DNA from: an uncultured Cellvibrionales bacterium
GTDB lineage: Bacteria; Pseudomonadota; Gammaproteobacteria; Pseudomonadales; Dasaniaceae
NCBI GenBank assembly: GCA_913019905.1
Contig: CAJVZD010000002.1
Location: 62,001 to 126,000 of the forward strand
DNA: 64,000 nucleotides
Reading direction: 5' to 3'
In this document: piece by piece, positions 34,071-38,605 of the stretch
Numbering within the stretch: position 1 is the stretch's first letter
Layout of the letters: each line of letters opens with the position of its first letter
Translations under genes and position numbers: made by a program
Notes under the pieces: model-generated
Seen by the model: the letters and a program-made list of their open reading frames with translations, nothing else
Told to the model about the DNA's origin: nothing
The model's database searches: none

Positions 34071-36704
34071 TCACGGCTGCGATTTAGTCTGCAACTTTGT
34101 CGAAGAAAAACTGCCGTCTGCATTTAGAATCGTACCCCAAACTTTATGACTGGCCTGATGATTAGATAAGCTAAACGATATTTTGGTACCGATACCAAGA
34201 TCAAGGTCATCGATGGATTCTAAAGCCGTCACTAAATCTTCGTTATTGAAGTTTCGACCCACCCGCTGTATCGCAGTCACAAATATGTTAGCGACGATAT
34301 AGCCCTCTAGAGAAATAAAATCGGGCTTTTCATTAGGGTAATATTGGGCGAGCGCCTCGCGATAGTTTAAAACACCGCTGGCATATGAATCATACATCGG
34401 CACAACTTGCGTTATTAAAATGCCCTGCCCTAATTCCGGGTCAAGCTCCTGAAATAACTCCGCCAGGGCCCGTGAACCGACAAAAGAAATATTGGCAATT
34501 TCACCGGTGTAACCAACCTCCCGCATTCCTTTAGTAAACGCCGCACTTGCGGCATAGGTACCGACCACAATCACCGCTTCTACCCGATCAAGTTGGTCAG
34601 ACATTTTTGTCACAGCTGCATCGACTCGAACGGTATTGCGTTCATAATTACTGGTCATTACCGATGACTGGGAAACGTCATACTCGTAAAGAGTTTCCTT
34701 GATGCTCTCTAAAGTATCCAGCCCGAAACTGTCATTTTGATAAAATACCGCAATATTTTGCGCCGCAATCTTTTTTTCGTGAACATAGTGATGAATGATT
34801 GCGGACGTTTCTTCTTCGTAACTGGCCCTGTAGTTAAAGACATATCGGTCTGGCGGATCATTACGCAATAGTGAAGCACCCGAAAAAGTGCCCAATAGTA
34901 ATAATTTGTGTTCACGCGCCTGCGGCAGAATGACTTTCGCTGTCGGTGTTCCAACATTACCAATCATCGCCATAACGGGCTTTTCACCGCTGACAAACTC
35001 TTCAATATTCTTTATCGCTTTTTGGGGTTCGTAGCCATCATTCAGGGCCGATAACAGTATCTTCCGTCCATGGATTCCCCCCTTATCATTAACTTGCCGG
35101 AAGTAACTTTCGATGCCCACACGCATCGAACGACCCAATTCTTTCGCGCCGCCACTGAAAGCTGCACTCATACCGACGGTTAGAGTCTCTGAGGTGACTC
35201 CTCTAATATCCGGCTCTCCATTTGTTAAGCTATATAAGCTGTCGACTAAGAAATAACGTGCGGGTAAATGAAACCACGCACCGGCAGACAGGATGGTGAT
35301 AAAAGCCAAACCGACCAAACTCATTTTTAAGCCCCGCCCGGCCCGCTCGTCGCTGGAGCTTGCCTGCCCCCCAGCTTCACCGCCTGCCTTTTGAGACAAG
35401 TTTTGATTGAAGCTATACTGGCTCGACGTTTGGAAACCGGAAGGTTGCGACGGGGCATTAGCCAGCCCAGCCATTGAAGTCGTTAAAAGTATGGGCTCAG
35501 CATTACCCGCTTTGGGAAGCGTTCGCGGAGAACTGGTAGCCGGCTCGACAAACTCAGAAGGGAGATTATTCTGCTCCATAAGCTCGACAATACCAAGAGC
35601 TCCGCTGGCCTCAAACTTTTGGGCGAGATTGTTTGCTTGTGTTTCGGTGAGTTGCTTGCGAATAACCACCCTTTTGCCACTCAACAGAATAGGAATCTGA
35701 GTATCCGTGATCCCAAAACTTTGTTTCAAGGAATGAGCGACGCTGGTTTTATCGGTACCGGGCTTTATCTCCCCCTGGAAGACAAATTGGTACTCATCAC
35801 CCTTCTTAGCCAGTGGTTTGATAATCGTCGAATCATCAATATTACCAGTAAAGACCAGAATATCGTGCCAAAAATCTTTCACGGTGGGGTAGCGTTTGTC
35901 GATATCAACCGCCATTGACTTGGCAATAACGGCTTGTAACTGTAAAGTTTTGGGATCTGACACATCGCTTTCATTTATCGGTTCAGGTGGCCCCTGCAGC
36001 TGCTTGTTCATAATGGCTTGAGCACTTGAACCAGAATAGGGCTTTTTCCCAGTGACCATGTAATACAGTAATGCGCCTAAGGCATAAACGTCGGTCGCAG
36101 GGCCAATTGATTGTTGGCCATTAATTTGTTCCGGAGCCAAATAACCCGGCGTTCCCATTACCATACCCAACTGCGTGTGCTTTAAATCTTCTTCCCCCAG
36201 AGGCTTACTAATCCCAAAATCCAGTACCTTGGCAATGGTCTCATCGCCTGAAAGCTGCGAAACCATTATATTTTGTGGTTTTAGATCGCGGTGAACGAAG
36301 TTCAGTTGATGGGCGGCGTGAACGCCCGCTATGACTTGCTCCATCAGCCATATGACATTCGCCAGGGAAAAGCTACCATCACTAACCACGAGTTCCTCAA
36401 TATTTTTGCCGCCGAGAAACTCCATGGCTAAAAAAACGACACCCTCTTCACTGCGACCAAAATCAATTACACTAACAACGTTGGGGTGATTGATTTGACT
36501 GTTAATTCGCGCTTCGCGAAGAAACAACTGAATAAAATCTTCGTCATTAAACTCAGGTTGCAAGACCTTCAGCACAATCGGCCGGGCCAAACTTAACTGT
36601 TCGGCGACATAGACCTGGCCCATGCCGCCATCGGCCAATAACCGATCGATTCGATAGGTATTGTTAAAAACATGCCCAATTAGAGAATTTTCTTCGCCGT
36701 CCAT
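34071..36704 (-). CDS. Transmembrane Ser/Thr kinase fused to LivK-like receptor
   Basis: An 877-residue single-span receptor kinase. Residues 17-275 are a complete Hanks-type kinase: G-loop ADGGMG, Lys46, Glu64, HRDLKPQN (138-145), DFG (162-164) and APEQ. About 305-375 is a small module (FQGEIKPG, LLSGKRVVIRK) that I recognise from other bacterial membrane proteins but cannot name. A low-complexity Ser/Gly/Gln linker precedes one membrane helix at about 457-475. From about 505 to the end is a type I periplasmic ligand-binding domain like branched-chain amino acid receptors (VGMSAAFSGGAKELGRSM, then GKILL-like and NIAVFYQNDSFG strands). The orientation places the kinase inside and the receptor in the periplasm. 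No transporter is adjacent. Monocistronic; the ribosome site is weak. Confidence 0.9.
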   Translation of the reverse strand: MDGEENSLIGHVFNNTYRIDRLLADGGMGQVYVAEQLSLARPIVLKVLQPEFNDEDFIQLFLREARINSQINHPNVVSVIDFGRSEEGVVFLAMEFLGGKNIEELVVSDGSFSLANVIWLMEQVIAGVHAAHQLNFVHRDLKPQNIMVSQLSGDETIAKVLDFGISKPLGEEDLKHTQLGMVMGTPGYLAPEQINGQQSIGPATDVYALGALLYYMVTGKKPYSGSSAQAIMNKQLQGPPEPINESDVSDPKTLQLQAVIAKSMAVDIDKRYPTVKDFWHDILVFTGNIDDSTIIKPLAKKGDEYQFVFQGEIKPGTDKTSVAHSLKQSFGITDTQIPILLSGKRVVIRKQLTETQANNLAQKFEASGALGIVELMEQNNLPSEFVEPATSSPRTLPKAGNAEPILLTTSMAGLANAPSQPSGFQTSSQYSFNQNLSQKAGGEAGGQASSSDERAGRGLKMSLVGLAFITILSAGAWFHLPARYFLVDSLYSLTNGEPDIRGVTSETLTVGMSAAFSGGAKELGRSMRVGIESYFRQVNDKGGIHGRKILLSALNDGYEPQKAIKNIEEFVSGEKPVMAMIGNVGTPTAKVILPQAREHKLLLLGTFSGASLLRNDPPDRYVFNYRASYEEETSAIIHHYVHEKKIAAQNIAVFYQNDSFGLDTLESIKETLYEYDVSQSSVMTSNYERNTVRVDAAVTKMSDQLDRVEAVIVVGTYAASAAFTKGMREVGYTGEIANISFVGSRALAELFQELDPELGQGILITQVVPMYDSYASGVLNYREALAQYYPNEKPDFISLEGYIVANIFVTAIQRVGRNFNNEDLVTALESIDDLDLGIGTKISFSLSNHQASHKVWGTILNADGSFSSTKLQTKSQP

Positions 36705-37612: not shown

Positions 37613-38605
37613 ATGCCTGAATTAATTCCAGTATACCGAATATGGATGTTGCGACTCATTTTACCCGGTCGCTTCGGCAAGCCAATGACCGGTTTGCTGA
37701 TCTTCGCTGTATTGTGGCCGTTTCTCACTTTTATCAGTGGTGACATCAGCCTATATCTGAAACTGTTTCTAGTCGCAACCTGCTCATATATTGTTCCGGT
37801 ATTTGGCCATATTATTGATCGCACGCTGTCAGCATTTGACGAAATCACACCGATGCTTGACGGCACTGAGGCGGAAATAGCGACCTGGCGTCGCCAATTC
37901 ACTCACCGCGATGCGCGCTGGTTGCTCCTCGTCTCAACTGCCGCCATCGTGCTGTGGTTTTGCCATATTAGCTTGTTAGAATGGTCCTACGGGAGAAGCA
38001 TACGGGACATATTTCATACTCAGCAATACACCGGAACCTTCGCTGCACTTCTGGTCTGGACCGCGATGATAACTGCAAATTCCACACTTATAGCCAACGC
38101 CATTCTACTAGCGGATCTCGGCAGAAATCTAAAACTCGACTTATTGCGCGGATCAACTCAGGTGACGCTAGCCAAAGTCGCCGTCATGTCGACATTCTCT
38201 ATCGTCGGCACGCAAGCGCTTTATGTATTACTTGTATTAGATTCCGACTCCAACTGGGTAACGTTTGCACCGGGTTTCGCGATTACAGTTATTCCAATGT
38301 TTGCACTATTTCTTATTCCAGTTTGGCCGATGCACCAACGCTTAAAAGAGGCGAAACAGAACGAATTAAGCGCTATTGATAAACAATTAGCACTGTTAAG
38401 GCCGGATCCCATAATAGATTTAGGCGCTGAGAATAAACTCGACCAATTGAATCGTTTACTCACCTACAGACGGGAAATTCGCCAGACGTCCGAGTGGCCT
38501 TTCGACGTTCCCGCGCTCGCCAGACTGGGACTTTATTTGATATTGCCACCGCTCACCTGGGTGGGAGCAGCTCTGATAGAAAATGTTGTAGACAGTCTGG
38601 TTTGA
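37613..38605 (+). CDS. Membrane protein of unknown function
   Basis: A 330-residue protein I do not recognise. It has about six hydrophobic segments (near 25-45, 48-68, 100-120, 142-165, 188-208 and 215-240), a soluble charged stretch at about 240-300 that is likely coiled-coil (KEAKQNELSAIDKQLALL), and a last hydrophobic segment at 305-325. The pattern suggests an inner-membrane protein with a cytoplasmic helical arm. GAAGG lies upstream. It follows yaeQ by 148 nt on the same strand, without overlap. No motif suggests transport or enzyme function. Confidence 0.7.
   Translation: MPELIPVYRIWMLRLILPGRFGKPMTGLLIFAVLWPFLTFISGDISLYLKLFLVATCSYIVPVFGHIIDRTLSAFDEITPMLDGTEAEIATWRRQFTHRDARWLLLVSTAAIVLWFCHISLLEWSYGRSIRDIFHTQQYTGTFAALLVWTAMITANSTLIANAILLADLGRNLKLDLLRGSTQVTLAKVAVMSTFSIVGTQALYVLLVLDSDSNWVTFAPGFAITVIPMFALFLIPVWPMHQRLKEAKQNELSAIDKQLALLRPDPIIDLGAENKLDQLNRLLTYRREIRQTSEWPFDVPALARLGLYLILPPLTWVGAALIENVVDSLV

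Follow-up and report, generated by a model that had tools for sequence, protein, structure and literature searches.

What does a bacterial Hanks-type Ser/Thr kinase sense when its outer part resembles a periplasmic binding protein, and which cellular system does it serve? This question is raised by a gene in a stretch of 64,000 nucleotides from an uncultured Cellvibrionales bacterium (contig CAJVZD010000002.1, positions 62,001 to 126,000), hereafter called the window, in whose numbering positions are given. We found that the gene encodes a real, well-conserved receptor kinase, of a kind of layout known since 2005. Our best reading, to which we give an even chance, is that the protein is a PpkA-like, possibly ligand-gated receptor kinase for the type VI secretion system (T6SS). 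PpkA itself consists of a kinase, a transmembrane segment and a periplasmic domain, and its periplasmic parts vary between species (PMC6082577, PMC12607579). The parts of the window protein are as follows.

34071..36704, minus strand: whole gene of the receptor-type Hanks kinase with a periplasmic binding-protein sensor (open reading frame (ORF); end-to-end alignment with 11 full-length relatives at 45-51% identity).
35892..36656, minus strand: Hanks-type Ser/Thr kinase domain, residues 17-271 (Pfam Pkinase, E 1.6e-43; catalytic residues invariant in 36 of 36 proteins; PknA, PknB and StkP among the nearest solved kinases).
35574..35801, minus strand: module of the ClpS / ribosomal L7/L12 C-terminal domain (CTD) fold, residues 302-377 (AlphaFold2 predicted local distance difference test score (pLDDT) of 92; fold and profile matches).
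35334..35573, minus strand: low-complexity cytoplasmic linker, residues ~378-457 (pLDDT <50 at 378-458).
35265..35336, minus strand: single predicted membrane helix, residues ~457-480 (hydropathy; predicted helix 457-478).
34116..35186, minus strand: periplasmic type I binding-protein-like sensor domain, residues 507-863 (Pfam Peripla_BP_6, E 1.6e-50; phmmer match to 4kv7, E 3.6e-65; Foldseek match to 4kv7, template-modelling (TM) score 0.85).

The gene is a single ORF of 877 amino acids that starts with an ATG at 36704, ends with its stop codon at 34071 and contains zero internal stops. Among 390 genomes of the order, 12 (the window's own and 11 others) carried the full-length kinase-sensor protein, defined by a frame of 869-909 aa with a sensor match at least as good as E 1e-45, and the ORFs in the 11 other genomes matched the whole window protein. 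A scan of named genomes revealed kinase and sensor in one ORF at 34 of the best 78 loci, 10 of which were the same genes as 10 of the 11 relatives from the order. Gammaproteobacteria accounted for 20 of the 34 (Teredinibacter, Aliikangiella, Ketobacter, Hahella, Marinifaba and metagenome-assembled genomes (MAGs)); the other 14, of which 13 were distinct, came from MAGs labelled Lentisphaerota, Planctomycetota, Acidobacteriota, Myxococcota, Chloroflexota or unplaced. With the window protein and that of genome G075 added, the comparison comprised 36 rows, 22 gammaproteobacterial and 14 other.

As evident from the Pfam scan, the kinase and sensor matches were both well above the cut-off. The catalytic set of K46, E64, HRD (138-140), N145, DFG (162-164) and E192 of the APE motif was kept in all 36 aligned fusion kinases, and the window protein is expected from its sequence to be an active kinase. 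The first glycine of the G-loop is replaced by A24, a position that is Ala in 20 of the 22 gammaproteobacterial rows and Gly in all 14 others. The only hydrophobic segment between the domains is of modest strength (mean hydropathy 1.64 at 458-476 and 1.69 at 462-480) and falls within the predicted helix; the best segment at the same place in other fusions had values of 1.74 to 3.17. The Peripla_BP_6 match spans profile positions 1-341 of 343, indicating a type I fold over the full domain, and the model of the C-terminal half was a type I binding fold, to which 4kv7 and 3lop matched with a TM-score of 0.85 on the target. Since the AlphaFold2 model of the whole protein, built on 12 sequences, had a mean pLDDT of 68 and was low in several kinase stretches, our fold call for the sensor leans on sequence profiles too. 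The sequence-only reading had described a complete Hanks kinase joined by one membrane helix to a full type I binding domain and had called for structure prediction of the C-terminal part; the description stood, and the predicted fold came out as type I. It is near certain from these sequence features that the protein is a single-pass receptor Ser/Thr kinase composed of kinase, module, flexible linker, predicted transmembrane helix and type I binding domain, and we infer that the kinase lies inside the cell and the sensor in the periplasm.

The evidence for a tie to the T6SS comes from the relatives. T6SS genes (VgrG, ClpV, VipA-VipB fusion or Hcp) were present in the fetched flanks of 8 of the 22 gammaproteobacterial members, namely those of genomes G133, G075, G178, G236 and G255 and the Hahella loci L113, L118 and L120, and Pfam confirmed VgrG, PAAR, ClpV, the VipA-VipB fusion and Hcp on examples of these flanks. 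In G075, the VipA-VipB fusion gene ends 31 bases before the kinase gene, which is on the opposite strand. At locus L101, one strand carries, one after another, VgrG, PAAR, a sigma-54 activator and the kinase gene; with the listed start, the activator and kinase genes overlap by 8 bases. The linked members fall into two distinct clades of the kinase tree, one Ketobacter-like and one of Hahella, each near a VipA-VipB fusion.

Co-occurrence pointed in the same direction. The VipA-VipB fusion (E 1e-60), found in 24 of the 390 genomes of the order, was present in 12 of 12 kinase genomes versus 12 of the 378 others (Fisher 1.2e-16, relatedness ignored); VipB at E 1e-80 was found in 122 of the 390. 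All 21 gammaproteobacterial kinase genomes tested had VipB, at a threshold less strict than this order-wide one. Among the 10 sampled genomes of the window's family, only its own genome, G000, has the kinase, VipB or the VipA-VipB fusion. As a control, we counted Hanks kinases within 15 kb of VipB and found 6 of 14 fusion kinases versus 9 of the 136 others listed in the same 13 genomes, from a list cut short (Fisher 6.7e-4), a comparison in which the genomes were partly picked after the link had been seen and the rows are related. Several of the nine are likely to be T6SS kinases themselves. In G075, G178, G236 and G133, a second T6SS is present, and a different Hanks kinase lies within 15 kb of the VipB gene of that system.

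The window's own genome has its T6SS cluster on contig C3, where 14 consecutive genes match the G075 cluster in the same order with 35-81% identity. This G075 cluster adjoins the kinase gene; on C3, the genes past the VipA-VipB fusion are instead a PAAR-like gene, VgrG and an Hcp-like gene (VgrG by Pfam, the other two by eye), and a search of the own genome found no Hanks kinase on C3. A gene upstream of the C3 cluster starts like a forkhead-associated (FHA) protein, as judged by eye. The cluster occupies G000:C3:84000-110000 (L187, L188), and the nine sampled family mates lack VipB at E 1e-80. The G000 genome measures 6.4 Mb, as compared with 2.3-4.8 Mb for its congeners.

We infer both the T6SS role and the ligand gating from these comparisons, and the odds of a T6SS role, judged from sequence, appear to be about even. 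In the mechanism that we propose, a small periplasmic ligand would close the two lobes of the sensor, lobe closure would alter the pairing of two receptors, and the altered pairing would start autophosphorylation and the phosphorylation of a target. In Gammaproteobacteria, to judge from the relatives, the kinase would serve a T6SS of the VipA-VipB-fusion type and take the place of PpkA in the threonine-phosphorylation pathway; the FHA-like protein of the T6SS cluster is a possible reader of the phosphate. The predicted order of kinase, transmembrane helix and C-terminal periplasmic domain resembles that of PpkA, as do the T6SS genes flanking the eight relatives. However, the periplasmic part of PpkA is described as working through protein partners (PMC6082577), whereas the window protein has a type I binding fold, and the window gene lies outside any T6SS cluster.

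Several observations weigh against the T6SS role. The window copy is not beside T6SS genes, the cluster being on another contig, and the fetched flanks of 14 of the 22 gammaproteobacterial members, some of them short, held no T6SS marker. The unlinked members include five g93 genomes, in which the kinase neighbours look by eye like cytochrome bc1 and sspA/B genes. None of the 14 members outside Gammaproteobacteria was T6SS-linked, and VipB was present in only 3 of 8 such genomes tested. Named loci led to nine gammaproteobacterial kinase genomes, of which three (Marinifaba, L115 and L117) lacked a third, fusion-type VipB match, and 12 genomes of the order have the VipA-VipB fusion without the kinase. 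Since 11 of the 12 co-occurring genomes belong to one family, independent co-gains of kinase and fusion number about two. The nine other Hanks kinases near VipB and the post hoc choice of part of the genomes count on the same side, and a Pfam scan of the sigma-54 activators found no FHA domain.

The strongest rival draws on the same observations. The protein may be a general nutrient- or metabolite-sensing receptor kinase without a special T6SS tie, the linkage in some lineages being hitch-hiking, and we regard this as a serious possibility that falls somewhat short of probable. It would account for the 14 unlinked members outside Gammaproteobacteria, for the five of eight tested genomes without VipB, and for the unlinked window and g93 copies. 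It fits less well with the T6SS link kept by two separate gammaproteobacterial clades, each near a VipA-VipB fusion, and with the window's family, in which the sole kinase carrier is the sole VipB carrier.

A second rival concerns the sensor. The periplasmic domain might have lost small-molecule binding and instead offer a surface on which another periplasmic protein docks, as that of PpkA does for RtkS or, probably, TagR; the input of PpkA runs through protein partners (PMC6082577), which would fit such a role. On the other hand, the segments GNVGTPT, SGA..LR, NYRASY, SFVG and QVVP vary little or not at all among 12 aligned proteins, and T586, F607, G609 and S740, which align with ligand contacts of LivJ, lie inside conserved segments, as would fit a ligand site that was kept and altered. 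We consider a pure docking surface unlikely.

A third rival is the proposal of the sequence-only reading that the sensor is LivK-like and the protein a branched-chain amino-acid receptor kinase. The fold part of this proposal held. By sequence and fold, the closest solved relative of the sensor was Rhodopirellula baltica 4kv7 (sequence match over residues 504-867), of which the solved chain is the binding domain alone, and the L-Leu-bound structure 4n0q was among the fold matches. The binding site did not agree with the proposal. We take the ligand contacts of E. coli LivJ to be S79, A100, T102, Y202 and E226; these align with T586, F607, G609, T716 and S740, so that four of the five contacts are replaced in the window protein, in a low-identity alignment whose single positions are uncertain. 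Among 106 aligned rows, 104 have Ser at the position of LivJ E226, the exceptions being LivJ and LivK themselves; duplicates of the window locus and two long-branch rows had been dropped from this alignment. The alignment of LivJ S79 with T586 and the prediction that Peripla_BP_6 members mostly bind branched-chain amino acids (PMC9602780) would favour such a ligand. Because the contact positions carry T, F, G, T and S, with Ser at the E226 position, we keep the branched-chain amino acid as a rival of low probability, and the sequence comparison suggests that the sensor probably binds a small periplasmic ligand, though not the way LivJ binds its amino acid. Also unlike LivJ and LivK, with which it shares the type I fold, the window sensor is encoded away from transporter genes: Pfam revealed none among the eight neighbouring ORFs scanned, two of which had no Pfam match, and all four matches to PF02653 (LivH/M-type permease) in the genome are on contigs C4 and C21, none on the window's contig C2, which agrees with the earlier remark that no transporter is nearby.

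That the frame is an assembly join of two genes, which the sequence-only reading had named as a finding that would refute it and in favour of which we found nothing, is ruled out for practical purposes by the same full-length frame in the 11 other genomes and in named isolates that include Aliikangiella marina, Marinifaba aquimaris and Hahella ganghwensis.

The additional module, which the sequence-only reading had placed at about residues 305-375 and considered possibly regulatory, proved to be a real domain. Modelled alone by AlphaFold2 on 34 sequences, it showed the order beta-alpha-alpha-beta-alpha-beta, and its best fold matches were ClpS (Z 9.1; root mean square deviation (rmsd) 2.6; 73 aligned residues) and the L7/L12 CTD, 1ctf (Z 8.4; rmsd 2.5; 68 aligned residues). 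Unrelated rows in this comparison lay near Z 6, and the fold-comparison tool warns that a Z of 7 to 8 can reflect a common arrangement. Searches of other kinds gave weaker matches, those by sequence again pointing to this fold: the best Foldseek E was 1.4e-3, the best profile matches in the PDB were L7/L12 at a weak E of 0.035, and the Pfam model Ribosomal_L12 weakly matched 8 of the 34 rows (best E 9e-4); no Pfam model names the module. On the basis of the model, residues 302-377 are a domain of the ClpS/L7-L12-CTD fold. ClpS and L12 bind protein partners, and by this analogy we guess at a docking role for the module. BLAST found the module in 14 of the 20 named gammaproteobacterial fusion loci and in none of the 14 others; the corresponding region of g93-type members can be aligned, though it has diverged, and in L124 the stretch between the kinase (end at 316) and the sensor (start at 413) leaves the module little space.

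Of the 390 genomes of the order, 134 encode proteins that matched the module at E 0.001 or better. It mostly starts small proteins with low-complexity tails (14 of 24 loci used), one of four scanned having DUF805. This ~75-residue domain without a Pfam model of its own starts many small gammaproteobacterial proteins (L067-L090). A 392-395-aa gene adjoins the kinase-sensor gene at L096:10932-12119 and L097:11814-12992, and its start resembles the module by eye; the L096 copy, scanned as L105:6644-7828, had no Pfam match at 0.001.

The trees of sensor and kinase disagreed with each other. In the sensor tree, the gammaproteobacterial members joined the Lentisphaerota/Phycisphaerales set with a support of 100, and their union with the Acidobacteria-type set was rejected (p 6.5e-57); in the kinase tree, they joined the Acidobacteria-type set with a support of 89, and their union with the Lentisphaerota/Phycisphaerales set was rejected (p 0.030). 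The groups were named after the trees had been seen, and these were quick trees only, in which long branches were flagged. Duplicates of the window locus were dropped from both trees, and the sensor tree also lost rows of <280 residues and 23 name prefixes, mostly Bradyrhizobium near-copies; for the later sensor-tree sets, two long-branch rows and those of E. coli were removed as well. Nine rows of the sensor tree carry the label DUF4388, which for three of them (L167, L177 and L178) was given without a Pfam scan. Because the two trees conflict, these sequences suggest that the sensor has been re-paired with different kinases. Approximately unbiased (AU) tests did not reject a single origin of all the fusions (kinases, p 0.137; sensors, p 0.329). 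A bolder version of the T6SS reading is doubtful but conceivable: a family of small-molecule-gated receptor kinases would switch the T6SS on and off, filling the slot of PpkA with a binding-protein sensor and a ClpS-like adaptor of its own, and would have arisen by repeated re-pairing of one mobile sensor module.

The sensor was also found outside the fusion. It occurs on kinases other than the window type, and the order has sensor relatives of ordinary length, in frames of 385-478 aa. The kinase-less loci of the scan mostly have extra N-terminal residues ahead of the sensor, approximately 40 to 350 in most, some starts being uncertain. Ten kinase-less proteins were scanned with Pfam: six matched DUF4388, five over the cut-off and L129 just under it, and four Bradyrhizobium rows had no other named domain. 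The proteins at L129, L137, L158, L161, L162 and L171 (Myxococcota, Acidobacteriota and 'Deltaproteobacteria') combine DUF4388 with the same sensor subfamily and a hydrophobic segment. In Bradyrhizobium (L140, L152, L179 and others), the sensor follows an apparent signal peptide and a stretch of ~110 residues, sometimes in neighbouring tandem copies.

We compared the window protein with other known systems. A Nostoc sp. PCC 7120 protein with a kinase and an ANF-receptor domain was listed by Krupa and Srinivasan in 2005 (PMC1262709), so the layout, which the sequence-only reading had set apart from that of most bacterial receptor kinases, is not new. In that protein, a Hanks kinase is likewise joined to an ANF-receptor-like domain, which is said to take part in branched-chain amino-acid binding; the account, made up of a table, a figure legend and one sentence, mentions neither a ClpS/L7-L12-like module nor a T6SS link, and our comparison is with this description only. 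Besides this source, a literature search beyond whose reach most subscription journals lay found no paper naming the architecture, nor any on a T6SS kinase with a binding-protein sensor. The module fold, the sensor on DUF4388 proteins and other kinases, and the gammaproteobacterial T6SS association are added here. The PASTA kinases PknB and StkP have kinase domains near that of the window protein, and PknB_PASTA_kin was the best NCBIfam kinase model (E 5e-75 over the kinase part), although its score was 253.6 against a cut-off of 450 and the Pfam scan found no PASTA domain. Separate binding proteins are known to act on Ser/Thr kinases (PMC9602780): GlnH-GlnX-PknG shares the binding-protein input to a Ser/Thr kinase (PMC9602780, PMC9769921), but PknG receives it from separate proteins. 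A Streptomyces coelicolor kinase also has a binding-protein domain as input, described as Glu/Gln-binding (PMC1262709).

The signals that switch bacterial receptor Ser/Thr kinases, those of the T6SS especially, are largely an open question; the signal sensed by RtkS, the activator of PpkA, is said to be unknown (PMC6082577). As a rule, binding-protein domains are soluble and lend themselves to ligand screens, so that the kinase-sensor family would make this question directly testable. It also offers a case of one sensor module shared by kinases and DUF4388 proteins in several phyla. If the T6SS reading is true, a chemical signal may control a bacterial weapon.

As to how the window genome came by the gene, transfer is the likeliest course, and loss elsewhere is a possible alternative: the 11 relatives in the order all belong to family f29, and the window's family mates (G001-G009) lack the fusion. 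We saw no gene order in the window that recurs around the gene in the 11 relatives. The GC content around the gene was unremarkable (0.43-0.46 in a range of 0.43-0.47), promoter and terminator scans were near chance, and no matching plasmid or phage record (0 of 1078 and 0 of 56) covered 80% of the query at one place. A contaminant contig was considered and set aside. The best matches of the neighbouring PhoH-like gene come from the genus and family of the window's genome (52-54% identity), by which C2 looks native; this is not decisive, and the assembly contamination is 5.1%.

Other observations concern single loci. The fusion proteins L125 and L126 are identical and come from two MAGs with groundwater names, one labelled Chloroflexi and the other Planctomycetota, and this identity across labels of different phyla suggests that one of the two is misbinned. 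The Hahella members L113, L116, L120 and L124 have by eye an extra N-terminal, cysteine-rich and zinc-ribbon-like stretch before the kinase that is absent from the window protein. Finally, a 330-aa ORF at 37613-38605 of the window (plus strand), flanked by a YaeQ gene and a cNMP-binding/rhodanese gene, is hydrophobic by eye and had no Pfam match at 0.001.

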